DNA from: Paracidobacterium acidisoli
GTDB lineage: Bacteria; Acidobacteriota; Terriglobia; Terriglobales; Acidobacteriaceae
NCBI RefSeq assembly: GCF_003428625.2
Contig: NZ_QVQT02000004.1
Coordinates: forward strand, 124,001 to 188,000
Direction: 5' to 3'
Length of the DNA: 64,000 bases
Every line of letters begins with the position of its first letter. The stretch's first letter is position 1. Position numbers and translations under genes: made by a program. Below are positions 15,128-42,859 of the stretch, piece after piece. The notes beneath the pieces are model-generated. The model ran no database searches and was not told the origin of the DNA. It saw only the letters and a list, made by a program, of their open reading frames with translations.

Positions 15128-16300
15128 ATGTCCAGACCCTCAGTCCACCGCCTGCGCAAGTTCCGTTTCGAGCGTCCCCAGCAGATCGCAGCCCTTCTGC
15201 TGCTCCTCTTCTTTGGCCAGTGTCTCTGGATCAGCGCCCATCGCACTCTCTCCGAAACCGACTATCAGTATGCCCGCTGCGGCCGCGAAACCTGGGAAAA
15301 GCCCGCGCTCCTCACCGGCTACTTCACCACCTGCGGCAACATCCCCGACGGCATCCTCGCCTGGCGCGCCGCCGGTCTCCCGCTCACCATCGATCGCATC
15401 CTCTCCGGCGAATCCGCTTCCACCTCCACATGGGAGATGCGCCACGAGATCTGGTCCATCCGTCTGCTCGTCCGCCTGCCCTTCATGCTCGCCGGCCTCG
15501 CCCTCGGCGCCTGCCTCTGGTGGGTCACCCGGCGCCTCTTCGGAAACACCGGCGGCTACATCGCGCTCGCGCTCTACTGCTTCTCGCCGCCCATCCTCCG
15601 CGCCTCTACCGTGCCCAACAGTGAGATCCTCGCCGCCTTCGGCATCTTCTCTGCCGTGTACACCGCCATCGGCGTTTCGCACGCTCTCCAGGGTCCGCGC
15701 CGCAAATGGAGACCGCGCATCATCCTCCTCGCCGTCATCCTCGGCTTCACCGCCGCCGCGCACATCTCCGCCTTCGCGCTGGCGCTGCTCTTCTGCATCG
15801 CTTTCATGGCCTGGGTCGCGGAAGGCAAACGCGCGCTCATCCCCACTCTGCTCATCTTCTGGATCGTCTCGGCCTTTCTGCTCCTCTTCGCCGCCTACTC
15901 CTTCCGGCTTGACGCCTTCAGCTACATCTTCCGCAGCGCCGCCGGCATGCTCTGGATATCGCTCGAGCCCGCCCGCTGGTTCTTCACACGCCTCACCAGC
16001 GTCATCTTCACCATAGCCATCGCCGGCTCGCTCGCCCTTTACGCCGCGCAGCGCCGCTCCCGCTACTTCGGCAACACCGCGCCGCTCATCGTCGCCGTTG
16101 TGCTCTTCCTCGTCATCACCACCGGCGTTCACTCCGAACCCTGGCTCTGGGCGCTCCCCTTCTTCATCACCTTCATCGCCGGCATCTTTGCCGATGTTCT
16201 TGAGACCCGCCATCGCCGCCTCTTCCTCTTCGTCACCGGAGGTATCCTGCTCGCTCAGGCCGCGCTTTGCCTCGCTACCCTGCCGCTGCTGACGCAGTAG
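15128..16300 (+). CDS. polytopic membrane protein, PMT/ArnT-like glycosyltransferase fold suspected
   Basis: A 390-residue integral membrane protein with one N-terminal helix (IAALLLLLFFGQCLWI), a roughly 70-residue loop containing SETDYQYARCGRETW, and seven or eight more helices. The layout (helix, long first outer loop with acidic residues, then many helices, including SPPILRASTVPNSEILAAF) recalls GT-C glycosyltransferases of the GT39/GT83 type, which use a polyprenyl-phosphate sugar. I cannot identify the substrate and would not name a gene. The frame ends at an amber codon, TAG (16298-16300), after which the same frame stays open for 55 codons with protein-like composition; see the next entry. 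Confidence 0.7.
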   Translation: MSRPSVHRLRKFRFERPQQIAALLLLLFFGQCLWISAHRTLSETDYQYARCGRETWEKPALLTGYFTTCGNIPDGILAWRAAGLPLTIDRILSGESASTSTWEMRHEIWSIRLLVRLPFMLAGLALGACLWWVTRRLFGNTGGYIALALYCFSPPILRASTVPNSEILAAFGIFSAVYTAIGVSHALQGPRRKWRPRIILLAVILGFTAAAHISAFALALLFCIAFMAWVAEGKRALIPTLLIFWIVSAFLLLFAAYSFRLDAFSYIFRSAAGMLWISLEPARWFFTRLTSVIFTIAIAGSLALYAAQRRSRYFGNTAPLIVAVVLFLVITTGVHSEPWLWALPFFITFIAGIFADVLETRHRRLFLFVTGGILLAQAALCLATLPLLTQ

Positions 16301-16522: not shown

Positions 16523-17029
16523 CTAAGGCTCGACCGACTCTGTCACAGAGGTGTCGCGCTCCCAGCCTTCGTTCTCCAGCCTGATATGTTCGATGGCGAC
16601 GGCGTTCGCATCCGAGCTCAGATCCGGCAGAGCCTCATATTCCGAAGGCCAGCAGCGCAACACGTTGTACGCATACACCAGCTGGCCTGCTTCGTTGTAC
16701 AGCTCAATCCGAATATCCTTGCGAAACTCCTTCAGCGCGACCTCCGCGCCCAGGGCAGCGCCCAGTTGCCACACAAGGTTGGCCCATTCTTCGAAAGCCC
16801 GATCCTGCGTCAGCCCGCGCTCCAGAGTGATTGGCTCGAACTCCGTCAGTCCCGGCGACTTCCGGCTGGTGCTCGGATCGCCGCCCTCGCGATGCGCCAC
16901 CACCTCCGTGGTGCGTTTGAGCCCGGTGACTTTCGAGACGCCGGCAACATATTTGCCGTCCCACTTCACGCGAAATTTGAAGTTTTTGTAGGGGTCGTAG
17001 CGAGTCGGATTTACAGGAAATTCCGCCAT
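16523..17029 (-). CDS. phage tail tube protein (T4 gp19-like / contractile injection system tube)
   Basis: A 168-residue protein of the gp19-like tail-tube family (TIGR02241 type), the inner tube of contractile phage tails and of extracellular contractile injection systems. It shows DPYKNFKFRVKWDGKYVAGV at the start, then VTGLKRTTEVVAHREGGDP, EPITLERGLTQDRAFEEWAN, and an IELYNEAGQLVYAYNVLRCW strand. Length and motif order fit the family well. No sheath, baseplate, spike, LysM or ATPase gene of such a system is nearby, so it is an orphan in this window. I chose the ATG at 17029 (MAEFPVNPTRYDP); an ATG at 17041 would add four residues. Confidence 0.87.
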   Translation of the reverse strand: MAEFPVNPTRYDPYKNFKFRVKWDGKYVAGVSKVTGLKRTTEVVAHREGGDPSTSRKSPGLTEFEPITLERGLTQDRAFEEWANLVWQLGAALGAEVALKEFRKDIRIELYNEAGQLVYAYNVLRCWPSEYEALPDLSSDANAVAIEHIRLENEGWERDTSVTESVEP

Positions 17030-17078
17030 GCGCGGAAGCATACCACCGAAGTCTGCACCTGCAACCAGACAAATTTCA

Positions 17079-17113
17079 GGGCACACGCGCCGGCTCTTCC
17101 TGGCCGTGTGCCC
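17079..17113. terminator. hairpin between GH47 and tail-tube genes
   Basis: GGGCACACG (17079-17087) and CGTGTGCCC (17105-17113) form a perfect 9-bp stem around a 17-base loop. It lies between the end of the GH47 gene and the start of the tail-tube gene, both on the minus strand. Without a clear T-run it could be a terminator, an attenuator or simply a structured leader. Confidence 0.45.
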
Positions 17114-17256: not shown

Positions 17257-18645
17257 CTACTTCAGCCCCAGTGCCCGCTTCATCGGGTGCGCCTCCGTAT
17301 TCAGAATCACCGCATTGAAATCCAGCGTCGAGGGAGGCGCAAAGAGCAGATACAGATACTTCATCGTCTCTGCAAAGAAGAAGCTCTCCATATCATCGGC
17401 TTTCTCTTTGGTCTGCACATTTTTAAGCGCGGCAAAGCCGTCGTCCGTGCGGCAGTACTTCTCGATCGCATCGAAGAAGCCCTTGCCCATCTCCAGATAC
17501 TTCGCATCGTGCGTGTAGTGATACAGGTAATACGCCGACTCGATAATCTCCGGCCGCAGCGGATAATCCGCCGCCGTGATCTGCCCGGTTGCGTAGTTGT
17601 ACTGATCCGGCTCGATCCCCGCGACGTGCCACATCCGATTGCTCGAATCCTCCAGCCGCGCCGCACGGTTCACGTCACCGCCCAGCGCCAGCAGTGCCGG
17701 AAAAAACGCATCCAGCGCTCCGTAGTACGTGGTCGTGCGCTTTCCCGTATTCATGTCGGCCTGCCCATACCACAGCCCGTCCGGACGCTCGTCCGCCAGA
17801 TAGCGGTTGATCGCCACCAGGCTCGTCTGCCACATGCGCTCGCAGTCCTTATCGCCGAAGAGAATCGCCGCCTTCAGCAGGTACTCGTAATACGAATCGA
17901 TCCCGCCCATGATTCCTGCCGCCGTATCGGTCCACTGCCCGGTCTCCACATTGATCCCCAGCCCCACCAGCCCTGTCTTCGCGGAGCGCCGGTCGTACAG
18001 CGCCACCATCGCCTTCTTCGCCTTGTCGTAGTACTCCTGTTTGCCCGTCAGCCGCGCCAGCATGCCGTACTCGATCAGCAGGCTGCCCACCTCCGCCGGA
18101 TTGCTGTTCACGCCCCGCACCGCGCCCGTCTTCAGGTTCACGTACTCATACGGCATACCCGTCGGCGAGTCGAACATCGGCAGCATGCGCCGCCCCAGAT
18201 CATCGGCCAGTTCCAGCAGCCGCTTGTCTCCGGTCAGTTCGTAATTCGACTGCAGCGCGCCCAGCAGCCGGATCGTGATCTCGAAGTCCTTCACATAAAT
18301 GTCCTGATCGAGGTTCAGCTGCGTGTCGATCAGCTTCCGCGCCTCATCCGCCTGCGGCTTCAGCCCCATCAGCGTCAGCGTGTCCAGAGCGTCCACCGGC
18401 GTCATCAGCAGCGAGTGCCCGCTGCCGTACCAGTCATACGGCGCATGGCTCAGCGGCTTCAGCGCGTCATGCCCCCACGCATATTTTTTGTAGCCCTCCC
18501 ATGCGCGCAGGCACTCCGCGCGCACCTTCTGCGCCATCTCCGCCTTCTGCGCATCGGTCATCGGCACGGTGGAAACAGAAGCGCTCTGCGCAAAGCAGAC
18601 CGGCACAGCCAACGCGGCAAACAGAACCCAAAAACGCATTTTCAT
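17257..18645 (-). CDS. secreted glycoside hydrolase family 47 alpha-1,2-mannosidase
   Basis: Inverting, calcium-dependent exo-alpha-1,2-mannosidase family, best known for trimming N-glycans in the eukaryotic ER and Golgi but also present in some bacteria. The 462-residue protein starts with a signal peptide (MKMRFWVLFAALAVPVCFAQS), so it is exported. Family signatures along an (alpha/alpha)7 barrel include WYGSGHSLLMTPVDALDTL, DFEITIRLLGALQS, VGSLLIEYGMLARLTG, DSYYEYLLKA, LRPEIIESAYYLYHYT, DDMESFFFAETMKYLYLLF, and the terminal NTEAHPMK whose Thr ligates calcium. The start at 18645 gives a normal signal peptide. It could act on fungal or plant mannans or glycoproteins. Confidence 0.92.
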   Translation of the reverse strand: MKMRFWVLFAALAVPVCFAQSASVSTVPMTDAQKAEMAQKVRAECLRAWEGYKKYAWGHDALKPLSHAPYDWYGSGHSLLMTPVDALDTLTLMGLKPQADEARKLIDTQLNLDQDIYVKDFEITIRLLGALQSNYELTGDKRLLELADDLGRRMLPMFDSPTGMPYEYVNLKTGAVRGVNSNPAEVGSLLIEYGMLARLTGKQEYYDKAKKAMVALYDRRSAKTGLVGLGINVETGQWTDTAAGIMGGIDSYYEYLLKAAILFGDKDCERMWQTSLVAINRYLADERPDGLWYGQADMNTGKRTTTYYGALDAFFPALLALGGDVNRAARLEDSSNRMWHVAGIEPDQYNYATGQITAADYPLRPEIIESAYYLYHYTHDAKYLEMGKGFFDAIEKYCRTDDGFAALKNVQTKEKADDMESFFFAETMKYLYLLFAPPSTLDFNAVILNTEAHPMKRALGLK

Positions 18646-18781
18646 GCCCACCACTCTAGAGCAAACCGCGCAGAAGGTGAAACATTCCATTCACACAGCC
18701 CTGTCATCTTCCAGCCACTTTGATTCTGCATTCAAACTCCACAGCCAATGCCCTGTACCATAGTTGAGGAAGCGAGGAGCA

Positions 18782-32816: not shown

Positions 32817-34310
<1,494 letters not shown>

Positions 34311-34312
34311 CG

Positions 34313-35581
34313 CTATCTGCCTCCGCCCGTTCCTGGCCCCGGCGCGCCGGACTCGCCCTCTCCGCCTTCGTGTTCGCTTTGCGGCTGCACCACCCGCACC
34401 GGTTCGCCGTCGACAATCGAGTCCGGCGGATTCTGAATCACGCGGTCGTCCGCCTCGAGCCCCTGCACCACCTGCACGGTGCGCCCGTCATCCTGGCTGA
34501 TCGTGATCGGCACCAGCTTCGCCTTGTTGTTGCTGTCGACAATCGCGACCCGCAGCCCCTCTGAGCGGAAAATAAGCGCCGGAACAGGAAGAATCAGCGC
34601 CGGCCGTGAGCTCTTCACGTGGAAATGAACTTCCGTATATGCTCCGGGGAAAATCTCGCCCTTGCTGTTGTTGACATCCACTTCCACCAGCAGTGTGCGC
34701 GACGTTGGATCAATCGAATCGGCGGTGCGAACGATCTTTCCCTGCACCTGCACGCCAGGCCGCTCGGCGAACGTCAGATCGGCGGCCACGCCCGGTCTGC
34801 AGCCGGCCGATTCCACCTGCGGCACATTTACATACACGCGCAGCACGTGTTCGTCGGCCATGTGAAACATCTCTTTGTTCGCTCCCGCGTCGATCAGCGT
34901 TCCTGTATCCACATCGCGGGCTGTAATCACGCCGTCAAACGGCGCGTAGATATTTTCGAACGACACCAGTTCCTGAAGACGCTGCACATTCGCCAGGGCC
35001 GACTTCACCTGTGTGGACGTTGACGCTTCCTGCGTCACGAAGTTGTCCGTGTCCTGTTTGGTCACCGCGTTCTGCTGCAGCAGATCCTGATAGCGGGCCG
35101 CCTGAATCTTCGCGTTGTGCGCGTTGGCCTCGGCCGTAGCCAGATCGGCCTTTGCCTGAGCCAGTTGCTGATCCACCTCCGGGCTTTCAATCACCGCCAG
35201 CAGCTGCCCCTTTTTCACACGGGAGCCGATGTCGAAATGCCACTGCTTCAGATAGCCGCTGGTTCGCGCATAGATCGGTGAATCAGTCCATGCATAGATA
35301 TTGCCCGGCAGCACAATCTCCTGCGTCGGCTGGCCCGGCTTTGGATTGGCGACCATGACCGCGGGAACGGCCAGTGCCTCCGTCTCCTTTTGCAGAGTGC
35401 TTTTTTGTCGCAGGCGCGGCAGAATGCCTGCCACGGCAAGCGCAACAGCTACGACCAGCAGCAGAAAGAGCAGCAACAGAACCTTCCCGACGGAGATCGG
35501 GGTATGCCCCTGACCTCCGGAACCGGAAGCAGCAGCGCCTTCCGGCGCGTCATGATGTGGTGTCTGCGATTCGTGTGACAT
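34313..35581 (-). CDS. RND efflux periplasmic adaptor (membrane fusion protein)
   Basis: Links the inner-membrane pump to the outer-membrane channel. The 422-residue protein has a short cytoplasmic N-terminus, one transmembrane helix (VLLLLFLLLVVAVALAVAGI), a barrel-sandwich lipoyl half-motif (DIGSRVKKGQLLAVIESPEV), a coiled coil (QQLAQAKADLATAEANAHNA), then the second half-motif YAPFDGVITARDVDTGTLID and beta-barrel domains. The C-terminus is Gly/Glu-rich and low in complexity. The ATG at 35581 (MSHESQTPHHD) lies 4 bp after the pump stop codon; the frame is open further upstream but that part overlaps the pump gene. Middle gene of the operon. Confidence 0.93.
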   Translation of the reverse strand: MSHESQTPHHDAPEGAAASGSGGQGHTPISVGKVLLLLFLLLVVAVALAVAGILPRLRQKSTLQKETEALAVPAVMVANPKPGQPTQEIVLPGNIYAWTDSPIYARTSGYLKQWHFDIGSRVKKGQLLAVIESPEVDQQLAQAKADLATAEANAHNAKIQAARYQDLLQQNAVTKQDTDNFVTQEASTSTQVKSALANVQRLQELVSFENIYAPFDGVITARDVDTGTLIDAGANKEMFHMADEHVLRVYVNVPQVESAGCRPGVAADLTFAERPGVQVQGKIVRTADSIDPTSRTLLVEVDVNNSKGEIFPGAYTEVHFHVKSSRPALILPVPALIFRSEGLRVAIVDSNNKAKLVPITISQDDGRTVQVVQGLEADDRVIQNPPDSIVDGEPVRVVQPQSEHEGGEGESGAPGPGTGGGR

Positions 35582-35585
35582 GATG

Positions 35586-38500
35586 TCAGATCTCCTGCAG
35601 CGCAGGTTTTCCCTGCCTGCGGCGAGCCTCGCGTTCACGGCGCCGGCGCTCGATCCGGCCGTGCAGTACGCTGAAAAATGTGGGGACGAAGAAAAGTGTT
35701 GAGACCGTTGCAAACAACAATCCGCCGATCACGGCCCGGCCCAGCGGAGCATTCTGCTCGCCGCCGTCGCCCAGGCCAAGCGCCATCGGGACCATGCCGA
35801 TAATCATGGCCAGCGCCGTCATCAGCACCGGGCGGAAGCGCACATAGCCCGCATTCAGCGCCGACATGGCGGCATCGCCCACGGTGATCTCCAGCTGCTC
35901 ACGGGCAAAGCTGACCACCAGAATGGAGTTGGCCGTCGCCACGCCCATGCACATAATGGCTCCCGTCAGTGCGGGCACGCTGACGCGCGTATGCGTCAGG
36001 AAAAGGAACCATACAATTCCCGAAATCGCCGCCGGCAGCGCCGAGATAATGATGAACGGATCGAGCCATGACTGGAAGTTGATGACGATCAGCAGGTACA
36101 CCAGCAGAATCGAAAACACCAGACCGCCCAGCAGTCCGATGAACGAAGACCTCATCGTCTCCACCTGCCCGCGCACTACAATCCTCGATCCGCGCGGAAG
36201 GCCGCTCTTCGACTCGGCAATGATCTTCTCGATCTGCTTGTCCACACTCGCCAGATCGGTGTTCACCACGTTCCCGTAAATATCGATCACCGGAGCGATG
36301 TCATAATGCGACACCGTGCCCATCTCGGTCGTCGGCTTCACGGAGACCAGATTCCCCAGCACCTGAATCGGCTGTCCTCCCATCGGCGTATTAGCCGGAA
36401 GAGCCGTCCCCGCCGCTCCGCTGATCGAGCTCGCCGGTGGAACCGTGGCCGCGGAGCTGCCGTTGGTGACCGGGATATTCGCAATATCCTGCAGCGAATC
36501 GAGCGAGTACTGCGGCGCCTGAACCGCAATGTCGTAACTTACGCCATTGCGCGGATCGAGCCAGAAGGCAGGAGCCGTCTGGAAGCTTCCGCTGGTCGCC
36601 ACCAGCAGGCTTTGCGCCACGTTACTCTGCTTGAGGCCAATCTGCTCGGCGCGCGTGCGATCGACGTTGACGTAAAGCTCCGGATCATCGAAGGGCTGCT
36701 GAATGCGCAGATCCGCCGTGCCGCCGACGTATTTGATTTTGTTCAGCAGCTTCTCGGCAAACGCCCGGTCGCCCTGCAGATCGCGGCCCACCACCTGAAT
36801 ATCAATCGGGGCCGGCAAGCCGAAGTTCAGAATCTGCGTGACCATATCCACCGGCAGCTCATAAAAGATCGTGCCCGGAAACCGGTTGGCCAGAGTCGCG
36901 CGCAGCTTCTGTACATACTCGTCGGTAGGATGATGCTTCTCCGTGAGCAGCACCTGAATGTCGGCATCCGCCGGACCGATCGGTGCGGAGTTGCTGTACG
37001 TGGTATTGATACCGCTGTACGGCAGGCCGATATTGTCGATGATGGTGACGAGCTCGCTCTTCGGAATCGTCTCCCGGATCGTTTTGTCGACATCGTCGCA
37101 CAGCCGCGCCGTCTCTTCGATGCGTGTTCCGGTGCGCGCGCGCATGTGTATCTTGAACTGCCCGCTGTCTACCGAAGGAAAGAAGTCCTGCCCGAGAAAC
37201 GGATAAAGCAGCGCGGCTGAAACCACGGCGAAGCCCAGAAAAACCAGCAAAAACACGGTCGAGTGTTCAATACAGAACGCCAGAATATCCCGGTAGCCGC
37301 TGCGCATCTTTTCGAAGTAATGCTCGAACCCCATCTGAAAACGGATAAACGGGTTGCGGCTCACCCGCTTTTGCTTAGCTGCTTCTTCGCTGTGTTCCTG
37401 CAGAAGATACTTGGCCATTGTCGGCACGACCGTGCGCGACAGCAGATACGAGGCCAGCATGGCAAAGACCACGGCCTCCGCCAGCGGCACGAAGAGATAC
37501 CGCGCCACGCCGGTCAGAAAGAACATCGGCACAAACACGATGCAGATGGACAGCGTGGAGACGAAGGCCGGAACCGCAATCTGCGCCGCGCCATCCAGAA
37601 TCGCCTGCTCGATCGCCTTGCCTTCCTCGAGATTGCGATTGATGTTTTCGATCTCCACCGTCGCATCGTCCACAAGGATGCCGACCGCCAGCGCCATACC
37701 GCCCAGCGTCATGATGTTGATCGTCTCGCCGATTGCGCTCAGCACCAGCAGCGACGTGAGAATCGAAAGCGGAATCGAGACCGCGATGATCAGCGTGCTT
37801 CGCCAGCTGCCCAGAAAGATCAGGATCATGATGGCCGTCAGACAGGCCGCGATGATCGCCTCTCGTACCACCCCGTCGATCGAGGCGCGCACGAACAGCG
37901 ACTGATCGGCCAGCGGCGTGATCTTCAGCTGTGGCGGAAGCTGCGCCCTGATCTGCGGCAGCACATTGCGTATGCCCTTCACAATGTCCAGCGTCGAGGC
38001 ATCGCCTGTCTTGATCACGCTGATCAGCGTGGCGCGCTGGCCGTCCACGCGCACAATATTCGTCTGCGGCGGAAAGCCGTCGCGGACATGCGCCACGTCA
38101 TGGATGTAAACCATCGCCCCGTTCACGGAGCGGATGGGAAGATCGTTCAGCTCCGCAATCGTCTGCGGCGCGCTGTTCGTCTCCACCTGATACTCGAACC
38201 GTCCAATCTTCGCCGTGCCTGCAGGCAGAATCAGGTTCTGCGCTGCAATCGCGTTGACCACATCCGAGGGAGACAGCCCCTTCGACTGCAGCGCCTGCAG
38301 GTTGAGATCGACCTGCACCTGACGCTGCTTGCCGCCATAGGGATAGGGCACGCCCGCGCCTGGAATCGTTACCAGCTGCGTCCGGATAAAGTTGAGACTG
38401 AAGTCGTTGAGCTGCGACTCGGAAAGTCCCTCGCCGGAAACACCCAGCTGCAGAATCGGCACGCTCGATGCGTTGTACTGCAAAACCAGCGGCGGTGTTG

Positions 38501-38870
38501 TCCCTGCGGGAAGCTGCCGCAGCTGCGTCTGCGCAATCGCCGTCACCTGTGCCACCGCGTCCGCCAGGTTCACCTTCGGCTGAAAGTAGATCTTGACGAT
38601 GCCCACGCCATTGATCGACTGCGACTCGATGTGCTGAATGTCGTTGACCGTGGTCGTCAGCGACCGCTCGGTAAAGTACACGATGCGGTTTGCCATCTCC
38701 TCCGGTGAAAAACCCTGGTACTGCCACACCATGGCGACTACAGGAATATCGATATTCGGAAAGATATCCGTCGGCGTGTTGAGCACGGCCAGAGGGCCCA
38801 GTATGAGAAGCAGTAAGGCAAAGACTGCGAAGGTATAAGGCCGTCGCAGTGCGAGACGAACAATCCACAT
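35586..38870 (-). CDS. RND multidrug efflux permease (HAE1/AcrB family)
   Basis: Inner-membrane proton-driven pump of 1094 residues with 12 transmembrane helices and two large periplasmic loops. It shows the family start RPYTFAVFALLLLILG, PNIDIPVVAMVWQYQG, the porter segment GVGIVKIYFQ, and the TM4 motif GGMALAVGILVDDATVEIEN with the Asp pair needed for proton transfer. The C-terminal half has GAIMCMGVATANSILVVSFA and PLGRAVIGGLLFATVSTLFF. A non-conserved insert (near TVPPASSISGAAGTALPANT, about residues 820-840) lies in the second periplasmic loop. First gene of the operon with adaptor and outer-membrane factor. Substrate not predictable. Confidence 0.95.
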   Translation of the reverse strand: MWIVRLALRRPYTFAVFALLLLILGPLAVLNTPTDIFPNIDIPVVAMVWQYQGFSPEEMANRIVYFTERSLTTTVNDIQHIESQSINGVGIVKIYFQPKVNLADAVAQVTAIAQTQLRQLPAGTTPPLVLQYNASSVPILQLGVSGEGLSESQLNDFSLNFIRTQLVTIPGAGVPYPYGGKQRQVQVDLNLQALQSKGLSPSDVVNAIAAQNLILPAGTAKIGRFEYQVETNSAPQTIAELNDLPIRSVNGAMVYIHDVAHVRDGFPPQTNIVRVDGQRATLISVIKTGDASTLDIVKGIRNVLPQIRAQLPPQLKITPLADQSLFVRASIDGVVREAIIAACLTAIMILIFLGSWRSTLIIAVSIPLSILTSLLVLSAIGETINIMTLGGMALAVGILVDDATVEIENINRNLEEGKAIEQAILDGAAQIAVPAFVSTLSICIVFVPMFFLTGVARYLFVPLAEAVVFAMLASYLLSRTVVPTMAKYLLQEHSEEAAKQKRVSRNPFIRFQMGFEHYFEKMRSGYRDILAFCIEHSTVFLLVFLGFAVVSAALLYPFLGQDFFPSVDSGQFKIHMRARTGTRIEETARLCDDVDKTIRETIPKSELVTIIDNIGLPYSGINTTYSNSAPIGPADADIQVLLTEKHHPTDEYVQKLRATLANRFPGTIFYELPVDMVTQILNFGLPAPIDIQVVGRDLQGDRAFAEKLLNKIKYVGGTADLRIQQPFDDPELYVNVDRTRAEQIGLKQSNVAQSLLVATSGSFQTAPAFWLDPRNGVSYDIAVQAPQYSLDSLQDIANIPVTNGSSAATVPPASSISGAAGTALPANTPMGGQPIQVLGNLVSVKPTTEMGTVSHYDIAPVIDIYGNVVNTDLASVDKQIEKIIAESKSGLPRGSRIVVRGQVETMRSSFIGLLGGLVFSILLVYLLIVINFQSWLDPFIIISALPAAISGIVWFLFLTHTRVSVPALTGAIMCMGVATANSILVVSFAREQLEITVGDAAMSALNAGYVRFRPVLMTALAMIIGMVPMALGLGDGGEQNAPLGRAVIGGLLFATVSTLFFVPTFFSVLHGRIERRRREREARRRQGKPALQEI

Positions 38871-39286: not shown

Positions 39287-40045
39287 TCAGACGTTCAGCT
39301 TTTTGAAGATACTCCGCGGGACGCTCCGCAGAATCAGCATGATGATGGCCCAGAACGGCGGCGTGTAGATCACGTCTTTGCGTTTTCGGATCGCTCCCAG
39401 AATGTCCTTTGCCACCTGCTCCGGCTGAGCGAAAAGCGGATTCGGCTTGATGTGCGCCGTCATCGGCGTCGCCACAAAGCCCGGCTTGATGGTCAGAACA
39501 TGCACGCCCGAGCGGTCGATGCGGTTGCGTACTCCATCCACGAAGACGTTCAGTGCGCCTTTCGATGCTCCATACACATAGTTGCTCTTCCGCCCGCGGT
39601 CTCCCGCGACCGAAGAGATCACCGCCAGACAGCCCTGCCGGCTCGCTTCGAAATAATTCGCCAGCCAGGTGATCAGTGAAACTGCTGACATGAAATTCGT
39701 CCGCAGAATCGCCTCAGCCGCCGCATAGCTAGCCTCCGCGTCCGCCTGTTCACCCAGTACTCCATGCGCCAGCAGCGCAAGGTCGATGGTGCCCAGCGAC
39801 TCCGCAGCCTTTTCCAGCATCGCCGGATGCGCTGCCGTGTCGTCCAGGTCCATGACATAGGCCGTCACCGCGCTCGCGCCCCGCGTCAGCAGGTCATCGC
39901 TCACCGCCGAGAGCTTCTGCGCATTCCGTGCCACCAGAAAAAAGCTCGCGCCTGACTCAGCCAGCGGCCGCAGCGTGGCTTCGGCAATCGCCGACGTGGC
40001 GCCCAGCGCCAGAACCCGCGAGGGCAGTCCCTTCCCTTTACTCAT
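39287..40045 (-). CDS. SDR family oxidoreductase, DprE2-like
   Basis: A 252-residue classical short-chain dehydrogenase. NAD(P) binding is by the variant motif LALGATSAIAEATL, DLDD follows strand 3, and the catalytic Ser and Tyr-Lys are in VISSVAGDRGR and YVYGASKGAL. The C-terminus ends in a membrane-associating hydrophobic stretch (FWAIIMLILRSVPRSIF). These features, and an 8-bp overlap with the DprE1-like gene, match DprE2, which reduces the 2-keto prenyl-phospho-pentose to prenyl-phospho-arabinose with NADH. The exact prenyl chain and sugar are inferred from mycobacteria. Third gene of the ubiA-dprE1-dprE2 set. Confidence 0.87.
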   Translation of the reverse strand: MSKGKGLPSRVLALGATSAIAEATLRPLAESGASFFLVARNAQKLSAVSDDLLTRGASAVTAYVMDLDDTAAHPAMLEKAAESLGTIDLALLAHGVLGEQADAEASYAAAEAILRTNFMSAVSLITWLANYFEASRQGCLAVISSVAGDRGRKSNYVYGASKGALNVFVDGVRNRIDRSGVHVLTIKPGFVATPMTAHIKPNPLFAQPEQVAKDILGAIRKRKDVIYTPPFWAIIMLILRSVPRSIFKKLNV

Positions 40046-41372
40046 CGATCGGCCTCCGCCCGGTTACCCGCTGCCAGAAAGCGGAATCGAAACCGGGATC
40101 GATATAGCGCGCAAACTCCTGCCATTGCGGATAAAAGGTCTGGTACTGGGCAGCCGTCATCCGTGCGTCCTTGGCCGAATACATGCGTCCTCCGTGCTCC
40201 AGCGTGATCTTCGCCAGGCGCTCCAGCAGATCGAAGCTGACCTCTTCCCTGATCGGAAAATCAAGCGCCAGCATGATGCCGGGCTGCGGAAACGACATCA
40301 TCCCCAGCGACGGGATATCGCCAAAGAACTTGATCACAGCCAGAAACGACGCGAGCCCGGAGCGCGTGATCGCCTTCAGAATTTCGATCATGCCTTCGCG
40401 GCCCGAGGCATGCGGCAGCACATTCTGAAACTGCAGCAGCCCATTCTTTCCATACATCCGGTTCCAGTGCAGCACGCTGTCCAGCGGATAAAAGAACGGC
40501 TCATAATCGACTTTGGCTGTCTTCTGCTTCGGAAACTGCTTGTGATAATAGACCGTGTTAAATGCGGCCATGCTGAAGCGGTTCAGCGCAACGGCCGGAA
40601 GATCGAACGGAAAGCTCAGCCACGGCTGCGGGCTCTTCTTCAGCTCGCCCGGCTCCTTTGTATGTTCGCCCTGCATAAAAATGCCGCGCGCAAAGTTCTT
40701 CCCTGTCGCCACGCAGTCAATCCACGCAACGGTATATTCAGCCTTTGCATTGCGTGACAGCGTCAGAAATTCATCGATGCCGACAAACTTCTCTCCGTGA
40801 TAGTCGATCTGGCGCGACACAATGGGCCGCAGCTTCACCTCGGCCCATGCAATCATCCCGGTAAGCCCCATCCCGCCGATCGTCGCCGCAAACCAGCTGG
40901 CGTTGACCGTCGGACTGCACAGAATGCGGTTGCCGTCCGAGCGCACCAGCTCAAACTGCAGCACATGATGGCCGAACGTGCCCGCCACATGGTGATTTTT
41001 CCCGTGAATATCGTTGGCAATCGCCCCGCCGACAGTGACATATTTCGTCCCTGGCGTGACGGGAAGAAAGAACCCGCGTGGCACTGCGAAGTCCAGAATC
41101 TGCGCCAGCGTCACTCCCGCCTCACAGCGCAAAACTCCCGTTTCGCGATCAAAGTGCAGCAGGCGATCCATGCCGAGCGTCTGAATCAGCGTGCCATTCT
41201 CCAGCAGGCACACATCGCCGTAGCTGCGCCCGGCTCCCACCACCAGCTGTTTGGCTGCAGGCGGCTTTGCCAGTGGATAATCAGCGGTCCAGTGCAGCGG
41301 AACAACCTCCGCCTGCATTTCGGGATATCTGCCCCACGACTCAAAACGGGGACGGGAATCAGATCGAGCCAT
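40038..41372 (-). CDS. FAD-dependent oxidase, DprE1-like (prenylphosphoryl-ribose 2'-epimerase oxidase)
   Basis: In mycobacteria DprE1 oxidises the 2'-OH of decaprenylphosphoryl-ribose, the first half of epimerisation to the arabinose donor. This 444-residue protein has the FAD_binding_4 domain (LVVGAGRSYGD, GVTLAQILDFAVPRGFFLPV, GGAIANDIHGKNHHVAGTFG, whose conserved His-Lys segment is diagnostic), a substrate domain, and a C-terminal GGRMYSAKDARM with the conserved Lys. In SFPQPGIMLALDFPI the mycobacterial Cys387, the residue trapped by benzothiazinone drugs, is Ala (about residue 369). I chose the ATG at 41372; a TTG at 41402 is possible. It overlaps the SDR gene by 8 bp. Confidence 0.88.
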   Translation of the reverse strand: MARSDSRPRFESWGRYPEMQAEVVPLHWTADYPLAKPPAAKQLVVGAGRSYGDVCLLENGTLIQTLGMDRLLHFDRETGVLRCEAGVTLAQILDFAVPRGFFLPVTPGTKYVTVGGAIANDIHGKNHHVAGTFGHHVLQFELVRSDGNRILCSPTVNASWFAATIGGMGLTGMIAWAEVKLRPIVSRQIDYHGEKFVGIDEFLTLSRNAKAEYTVAWIDCVATGKNFARGIFMQGEHTKEPGELKKSPQPWLSFPFDLPAVALNRFSMAAFNTVYYHKQFPKQKTAKVDYEPFFYPLDSVLHWNRMYGKNGLLQFQNVLPHASGREGMIEILKAITRSGLASFLAVIKFFGDIPSLGMMSFPQPGIMLALDFPIREEVSFDLLERLAKITLEHGGRMYSAKDARMTAAQYQTFYPQWQEFARYIDPGFDSAFWQRVTGRRPIDE

Positions 41373-41398
41373 ACGAAATACGGAGTCCTTGTTCCTTG

Positions 41399-42859
41399 TC
41401 AAAAAGCTGCCAGCACCGCGATCAGCACCGCAGCGGCGCCGGTCAGTAGGCTCATGCGGTCCGTTACGGCAAAAATAACGGGATCTTCATCCATCTCACC
41501 ACGAGAAGCCAGCAGCCATACCCGGCTCAGCCAGAAAATCATCAGCGGAGTCATCAGCCACATGCGTCCTGGATGCCTGTAAAGCGCCATCACGTCGCCG
41601 TTGCTGATATACAGCGAAAACACCACAACCGACGCATACGCGCTGGCCGTTCCAAAGCTGCGCAGCTGCTCGATATCGGCCAGCAGATACCCTCGCCCAT
41701 TCGACAGAATGCTTCCCTGCGCCCGCGCATTCTGCAGCTCGCTGAATCGCTTGACCATGGCCAGGCTGAGAAACAGAAAGATCGAAAATCCCGCCAGCCA
41801 GGGGGAGAAGAAGACCTGCGCCGCCGCACCGCCTGCCAGCAGCCGCAGCGTATACAGCCCTGAAAGCAGGATCACGTCCACCAGCCCCACCCGCTTCAGC
41901 CACAGCGAGTACAGCAGCGTCGAAACCAGATACAGCAGCAGCCAGCCCAGAAAATCCGGCGGCAGCAAAACAGCGGCAATCGTCAGCGACGCTGCCAGAA
42001 ACAGTGCCACGATCCCTATTCCTGCCACCGGCGACAGATCTCCGGAGGCAAAAGGGCGGAAGCGCTTTTTGTGATGACGGCGATCCGCTTCAATATCCAG
42101 CAGATCGTTCACAATATAGGTGGCCGATGCGCAGAGCGAAAACGCCAGAAATGCGTAAATGGCGCTCAGAATCGTCTGCAGCTGAAGAGCATGCGCCAGC
42201 AGCAAAGGGACAAAGATAAGAACGTTTTTGGCCCACTGATGTACCCGGACCGCCTTGCGAAAGACCCGCAGGCGAGGAGATCGGTCGCGAAACTCCCGTC
42301 CGATCGTGATCCGCTGGCTGCGAAGCCCTGCGCGCAGCGCCGCATGGGGATTCGCCACCATCGCCTCTCCGGCATGGGCCAGCAAAGGCAGATCGGGCGT
42401 TGCGTTGCCTACGTAATCGAAGCCTTCCCCGGCAAACCTCTGCTGCAGGCTCTCCAGCTTATTCTTCCCTGTCAGATTGGTCGCGCCGTCACTCGCCAGC
42501 ACCGCATCGAAGATGCCCAGATGCGCCGCAATACGCTCCGCCAGCTGTCCGTCGGCTCCGGTTGCCAGATAAATCCTGCGCCCCTCGCCGCGTTGCTCTT
42601 CGAGATACGTCAGCAGATTCCGGTTATACGGCAGACAGGACACATCGAGCGACACCAGCGAGGTGATGCGCGCCTTGAAGCCTGCCTTTCCAAAACGGAG
42701 CCACAGCGGCAGCTGCAGCGCGGCAAGCGGGCGGCTGCGCACCAGCAGCAGAATGGAATCAAGCAGCGTGTCGCTTTTTACCAGCGTACCGTCCAGATCG
42801 ACGCATAAAGGTCTTTGCGAAGCGGTCGGCGTCAGACTGCTGAGTTGCACCTGGTCCAA
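41399..42859 (-). CDS. HAD phosphatase-UbiA prenyltransferase fusion (prenyl-phosphate phosphoribosyltransferase-like)
   Basis: A two-domain protein of 486 residues. Residues about 17-195 are a HAD hydrolase: nucleophile motif DLDGT at 21-25, YLATGADGQLAERI, and GNATPDLPLL in place of the usual GDSxND motif. Residues about 200-486 are a UbiA-type integral membrane prenyltransferase with NDLLDIEADRRHHKKRFRPF (251-270), almost the Rv3806c (decaprenyl-phosphate 5-phosphoribosyltransferase) motif. In mycobacteria the transferase and the phosphatase that removes the 5-phosphate are separate; here a phosphatase may be fused. With the next two genes this gives the whole prenyl-phospho-arabinose route. 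Assignment is by motif and context. Confidence 0.85.
   Translation of the reverse strand: MDQVQLSSLTPTASQRPLCVDLDGTLVKSDTLLDSILLLVRSRPLAALQLPLWLRFGKAGFKARITSLVSLDVSCLPYNRNLLTYLEEQRGEGRRIYLATGADGQLAERIAAHLGIFDAVLASDGATNLTGKNKLESLQQRFAGEGFDYVGNATPDLPLLAHAGEAMVANPHAALRAGLRSQRITIGREFRDRSPRLRVFRKAVRVHQWAKNVLIFVPLLLAHALQLQTILSAIYAFLAFSLCASATYIVNDLLDIEADRRHHKKRFRPFASGDLSPVAGIGIVALFLAASLTIAAVLLPPDFLGWLLLYLVSTLLYSLWLKRVGLVDVILLSGLYTLRLLAGGAAAQVFFSPWLAGFSIFLFLSLAMVKRFSELQNARAQGSILSNGRGYLLADIEQLRSFGTASAYASVVVFSLYISNGDVMALYRHPGRMWLMTPLMIFWLSRVWLLASRGEMDEDPVIFAVTDRMSLLTGAAAVLIAVLAAF

Follow-up and report, generated by a model that had tools for sequence, protein, structure and literature searches.

The locus described here raises the question of whether a soil acidobacterium makes a lipid-linked arabinose donor and, if so, by which enzymes. 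It lies in the genome of Paracidobacterium acidisoli (5.0 Mb), within a stretch of 64,000 nucleotides of contig NZ_QVQT02000004.1 (positions 124,001 to 188,000) that was analysed as a whole and is referred to as the window. According to the list of open reading frames (ORFs) of the window, three minus-strand ORFs follow one another from 42859 to 39287, in the order HAD-UbiA fusion, FAD oxidase and short-chain reductase. Together they very probably direct the synthesis of polyprenyl-phospho-beta-D-arabinofuranose in four steps: a transfer, a dephosphorylation, an oxidation at C2 and a reduction. The features are the following:

41399..42859, minus strand: HAD-UbiA fusion, predicted polyprenyl-phosphate phosphoribosyltransferase (PPPRS) whose N-terminal domain is a predicted phosphoribose 5-phosphatase (PRP) (486 aa; TTG start)
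42281..42817, minus strand: HAD domain of the fusion (residues 15-193; motifs D21-x-D23-G-T, T100, K134 and GN(x)3D156)
41402..42274, minus strand: UbiA domain of the fusion (residues 196-486; aligned to 8j8j)
40038..41402, minus strand: DprE1-like protein, predicted FAD-dependent polyprenyl-phospho-ribose 2-oxidase (454 aa; TTG start)
39287..40045, minus strand: DprE2-like short-chain reductase, predicted 2-keto intermediate reductase (252 aa)

The ORFs are exactly as the original prediction had described them, running in one direction with an overlap of 8 bp between oxidase and reductase (40038-40045), and the motif NDLLDIEADRRHHKKRFRPF is present at residues 251-270 of the fusion. The fusion and the oxidase share a further 4 bp (41399-41402), provided that the TTG start of the oxidase, which overlaps the upstream stop codon, is used; translation could alternatively begin at the in-frame Met of residue 11. 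The sequence AGGAG was found directly upstream of the TTG start of the fusion. A scan for sigma-70 promoters gave no match, a result that is uninformative.

The fusion consists of a HAD domain (PF12710, residues 21-160) and a UbiA domain (PF01040, residues 220-459). The NCBIfam model PRK08238 spans residues 12-485 with 608.6 bits against a cut-off of 351, which identifies the protein as a PRP-PPPRS fusion, and the next-ranked models are decaprenyl-phosphate phosphoribosyltransferases. Its top match among PDB sequences is Rv3806c of Mycobacterium tuberculosis (8j8j, E 2e-27). In an AlphaFold2 model built from 20 homologues (pLDDT 84.6) and searched by Foldseek/VIA, residues 196-486 fold like Rv3806c (8j8j_A; Z 27.2, 3.1 A over 282 residues), whereas other UbiA proteins score Z 20.9 or lower. 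The structural comparison with Rv3806c and Rv3790 that had been suggested as a check thus agreed with the assignment, the best fold matches of the UbiA half and of the oxidase being Rv3806c and DprE1, respectively. Based on the alignment to 8j8j, N251, D252, D255 and D259 of the fusion correspond to N73, D74, D77 and D81 of Rv3806c, and K211, K322 and R371/E374 to K28, K143 and R192/E195. The fusion therefore carries the loop II N/D and loop IV R/E residues in addition to the Rv3806c fold; N73, D77, K28 and K143 were reported to bind Mg-PRPP (PRPP, phosphoribosyl pyrophosphate) in Rv3806c (PMC10994848). The HAD domain (residues 15-193) resembles phosphoserine-phosphatase-type HADs in its fold (Z about 14-17). 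Its DLDGT motif occupies D21-T25, and among the 20 homologues D21, T100, K134 and D156 are invariant and D23 nearly so. The catalytic motifs are thus in place, including the nucleophilic Asp that corresponds to D18 of the Citrobacter youngae protein ORF15.

The oxidase contains the Pfam domain FAD_binding_4. In a search of PDB sequences it aligned with DprE1 (4aut) along residues 53-436 with an E value of 8e-68, whereas the next family followed at 4e-10, mainly over the FAD domain; the top Foldseek matches of its model are all DprE1 (best E 1e-37). The original prediction had regarded a grouping with oxidases other than DprE1 as evidence against it, and no such grouping emerged from this comparison of full-length similarity with similarity restricted to the FAD domain. 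The comparison took the place of a DprE1 tree, the deep branches of which could not be resolved because the outgroups were too distant. His133 and Lys411 are the conserved equivalents of His132 and Lys418 of DprE1. At the position of Cys387, the target of benzothiazinones in DprE1 (PMC6015584), the oxidase has Ala379, which is invariant in 25 acidobacterial homologues. Since Ala or Ser is found there in M. avium and M. aurum (PMC6015584), this cysteine is not essential to the DprE1 family.

The reductase (adh_short) has DprE2 as its top PDB match over the whole length (21gq_C, E 9e-38; next match E 2e-18). It scores 310 bits with NCBIfam PRK07102 (cut-off 267) and carries the S145/Y158/K162 triad of the short-chain dehydrogenases/reductases (SDR).

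In the proposed pathway the UbiA half would transfer the phosphoribosyl group of PRPP to polyprenyl phosphate, yielding polyprenyl-phospho-ribose-5-phosphate, and the fused HAD domain would remove the 5-phosphate on the same cytoplasmic face, where the usual topology of UbiA proteins is expected to place it beside the PRPP site. The DprE1-like flavoenzyme would then oxidise C2, and the DprE2-like reductase would convert the ketone to the arabino configuration. The donor would be formed in the cytoplasmic leaflet, most likely on undecaprenyl phosphate, which is assumed because it serves as the lipid in other Gram-negatives. An unlinked flippase together with an arabinofuranosyltransferase of the GT-C type would subsequently deliver D-arabinofuranose (D-Araf) to a glycan of the envelope or outside the cell, or to a glycoprotein.

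A fusion with this domain architecture has been shown to carry out the first two steps. ORF15 of C. youngae, an N-terminal HAD (PRP) domain fused to a UbiA (PPPRS) domain, converts PRPP to farnesyl-phosphate-ribose, and its D18A variant accumulates the 5-phosphate form (Kelly et al. 2024, PMC11127046). The same study, in which Acidobacteria go unmentioned, also reports homologues of DprE1/E2 from candidate loci of glycans that contain Araf. The phosphatase role of the HAD domain, offered as an inference in the original prediction without mention of this precedent, is accordingly supported, but that a HAD-UbiA fusion carries out both steps is not a new idea. The third and fourth steps have been demonstrated in mycobacteria. 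For the three genes of P. acidisoli we observed the presence, the families, the conserved residues, the predicted folds and the co-occurrence described below; together with homology, operon context in other bacteria and the biochemistry of ORF15 these strongly support the predicted lipid-linked arabinose donor with HAD as the 5-phosphatase. That all four steps, and everything downstream of them, take place in P. acidisoli is our inference.

Several observations weigh against the synthesis of an arabinose donor. The oxidase remains below the cut-off of the NCBIfam DprE1 equivalog NF053785 (339 versus 500 bits) and the reductase below that of the DprE2 equivalog NF053786 (205 versus 250 bits), and we therefore use the names DprE1-like, not decaprenyl equivalog, and DprE2-like. 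The noe-type and Rhizobium homologues of the oxidase (403-404 bits) and the protein at the NoeP position of the Sinorhizobium alkalisoli noeCHOP cluster (198 bits) likewise fall below the respective cut-offs. In the fusion, the positions of Gln135 and Lys208 of Rv3806c are occupied by Thr314 and by Asn387, the latter within a weakly aligned loop. No flippase of the MATE, SMR or GtrA type is linked to the locus, with unlinked MATE/Wzx proteins not included in the search, and no GT-C is adjacent to the trio, confirming that an arabinosyltransferase is missing from its immediate surroundings. Finally, no chemical evidence of D-Araf was found for any Acidobacteriaceae. A study of acidobacterial exopolysaccharide reports xylose and no arabinose (PMC5259719); since no arabinose standard was used, this composition neither supports nor excludes D-arabinose.

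All three proteins are conserved in dozens of Acidobacteriaceae (identity 63-84% for the oxidase, 58-72% for the fusion), the closest relatives according to the oxidase being Silvibacterium and other members of the family with up to 84% identity. In a fixed panel of 61 related genomes, fusion and oxidase were detected together in 11, the full fusion alone in one (G017), a fragment of the fusion in one incomplete genome, the oxidase alone in none, and neither in the rest (Fisher p about 3e-11, uncorrected for shared ancestry). The fusion was present in all 12 named oxidase-carrying genomes that were checked, including those in which the genes are unlinked. The oxidase-reductase pair and the fusion occupy separate loci in Granulicella, Edaphobacter and Terriglobus. 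In genome G041 the full fusion lies on a separate contig (G041:C75), and a 102-aa stretch similar to the end of the UbiA domain is encoded just upstream of the pair (L120 9237-9545); this remnant is the trace of a fusion gene that was moved or replaced.

The same data bear on the question of whether the product is arabinose at all. The pathway could end in polyprenyl-phospho-D-ribofuranose or in a different pentofuranose, for instance xylofuranose, if the pair used a different carbon position or a different substrate. In Citrobacter O1 the fusion alone suffices for the ribose donor and in O2 xylofuranose is formed via a different epimerase (PMC11127046). Moreover, in the complete genome G017 the fusion immediately precedes the same resistance-nodulation-division (RND) operon as in the window while oxidase and reductase are absent (L227 9574-17679); as the genome contains no DprE1-like match, ribose may suffice as the output there, which makes G017 a naturally occurring test of whether ribose alone is the product. 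For P. acidisoli this seems unlikely, however, since the oxidase is similar to DprE1 over its full length, the reductase has DprE2 as its best match, the pair is kept in 11 of the 12 panel genomes with a full-length fusion, and the xylofuranose system works with a GalE-like SDR instead of a DprE1/E2 pair. That the three genes are mere neighbours, the UbiA half being an ordinary prenyltransferase of quinone or similar metabolism and the others general sugar enzymes, appears extremely improbable. The unlinked loci in the three genera named above and the large size of the SDR and FAD oxidase families would fit such an explanation, but Rv3806c ranks first by both sequence and fold, the residues of the PRPP site are conserved, and the co-occurrence holds where the genes are unlinked while the same set is operonic in other phyla.

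Granted that the trio makes the arabinose donor, the GT-C-like protein encoded at 15128-16300 of the window had been suggested as the arabinosyltransferase. It comprises 390 aa with about 10 hydrophobic segments; its PMT_2 match is below the curated cut-off (E 9e-4) and a direct scan assigned no Pfam family. A dedicated enzyme would be suggested by its location in the window and by a homologue in Granulicella paludicola (L090), which has 49% identity and is encoded about 7 kb away from the oxidase. Homologues of the protein are, however, present in 8 of the 11 oxidase-positive but also in about 23 of the 50 oxidase-negative relatives, and only one of 80 fetched oxidase loci has one close to the oxidase. 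The suggestion was not borne out, and we consider such a role very unlikely.

The host genome contains 12 PMT_2 matches and one GT87 protein. None of the nine PMT_2-type proteins compared across the panel, including that at 15128-16300, tracks the trio; C9:147354, C10:679468 and C13:139071 were left out of this comparison. The GT-Cs C14:76880, C2:11204, C13:127512, C1:306094 and C12:435944 are also common in oxidase-negative relatives, and C10:710247, C12:66811 and C11:346925 are not common to the oxidase-positive genomes as a set; absences in this comparison are weak because several GT-Cs were searched with a joint query and scoring was limited to 5-8 candidates in each genome. In G015 a GT87 gene is adjacent to the trio in divergent orientation, but the GT87 proteins of the oxidase-positive genomes do not form one orthologous set. 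A GT-C family without Pfam assignment (alignment A1), whose genes adjoin the trio on plasmids of Rhizobium and Paracoccus, has no member in the host genome and shows no relation to oxidase presence in the panel. A 547-aa membrane protein encoded downstream of the pair in G041 has no counterpart in the host genome either. As to the flippase, the profile of GtrA (PF04138, the Rv3789 family) gave no match anywhere in the host genome and none in 8 of the 11 oxidase-positive relatives, a ninth having only a fragment.

The system can be placed beside several known ones. The three-component pentofuranose system of C. youngae O1/O2 (the ORF15 PRP-PPPRS fusion, a MATE flippase and a GT136 GT-C; PMC11127046) resembles the window in that a single polypeptide combines an N-terminal HAD phosphatase with a UbiA domain like that of Rv3806c. 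In contrast, the window adds DprE1/DprE2-like epimerase genes, pointing to Araf instead of ribofuranose or xylofuranose, and its trio has no adjoining MATE or GT-C. The inferred chemistry is the same as in the mycobacterial decaprenyl-phospho-arabinose pathway (Rv3806c, Rv3807c, DprE1/Rv3790, DprE2/Rv3791 and Rv3789), whose transferase, oxidase and reductase are homologous to the trio. The window differs in having the HAD domain instead of the unrelated phosphatase Rv3807c and Ala at the position of Cys387, and the host genome in lacking a GtrA/Rv3789-type protein.

The gene order UbiA, DprE1-like, DprE2-like is shared with the noeCHOP clusters of Azorhizobium and S. alkalisoli. In the latter (L187) the homologues adjoin nodABC, in agreement with the claim that noe genes serve the arabinosylation of Nod factors, to which the cluster has been linked (PMC2443382; PMC10272884). 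However, NoeC of L187 has 387 aa and no full HAD domain, a GtrA gene lies between the UbiA and oxidase genes, and the context is that of nod genes. A UbiA protein, the oxidase and an SDR are further encoded together in plasmid-borne operons of Burkholderia, Rhizobium, Agrobacterium, Paracoccus, Azospirillum, Cereibacter and a rhodobacterium. A GtrA gene accompanies them in nearly all cases, and hypothetical proteins containing multiple transmembrane segments (multi-TM) often do so; on a Flammeovirgaceae plasmid the operon encodes oxidase and SDR with an unfused UbiA. The operons of Rhizobium (L167), Paracoccus (L168) and Burkholderia (L165) encode the same fused protein with the same two partners, the Rhizobium fusion being 38% identical to that of the window over 470 aa. 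They differ from the acidobacterial locus by the linked GtrA and, usually, a putative multi-TM glycosyltransferase, neither of which occurs in the latter.

On the Rhizobium (L167 10224-13402) and Paracoccus (L168 10074-14790) plasmids the donor operon is followed by tandemly arranged paralogues of a multi-TM family that has no Pfam assignment; they are good candidates for unassigned arabinosyltransferases. A longer type of operon occurs in Burkholderia, Agrobacterium, Rhodobacteraceae and Rhizobium tumorigenes (L165 10051-12810, L170 10088-12726, L184 9108-11711 and L189 9060-11707). Ahead of GtrA it additionally encodes an SDR of the NAD-dependent epimerase/dehydratase type and an NAD(P)/FAD oxidoreductase, which suggests a further modified sugar or lipid.

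In P. acidisoli a glucan phosphorylase gene is located upstream of the trio and an RND efflux operon downstream (32817-38870). The fusion repeatedly adjoins RND operons (L124-L130), the RND type in Granulicella and Edaphobacter differing from that of the window group. Elsewhere in the window, the minus strand encodes a full-length member of GH47, a class I alpha-mannosidase family best known from eukaryotes (17257-18690, E 4e-120), and a phage-tail-tube-like protein (16523-17086, Phage_T4_gp19, E 4e-44); no search was made for neighbouring tail or injection-system genes.

As the chemistry is already established in homologues, the surprise of finding it here is limited. With some doubt, we consider it possible that Acidobacteriaceae carry D-Araf on an undescribed surface glycan or glycoprotein, with the donor uncoupled from the GtrA-type flippase and the local GT-C that other known systems have, and with flippase and transferase families new to D-Araf. 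Based on Ala379, the oxidase is predicted to be naturally insensitive to covalent (nitro) benzothiazinones. The finding would extend the DprE1 pathway, known above all as a drug target in tuberculosis, to a common family of soil bacteria, in whose abundant and poorly characterised envelope or exopolysaccharide it predicts D-arabinofuranose.

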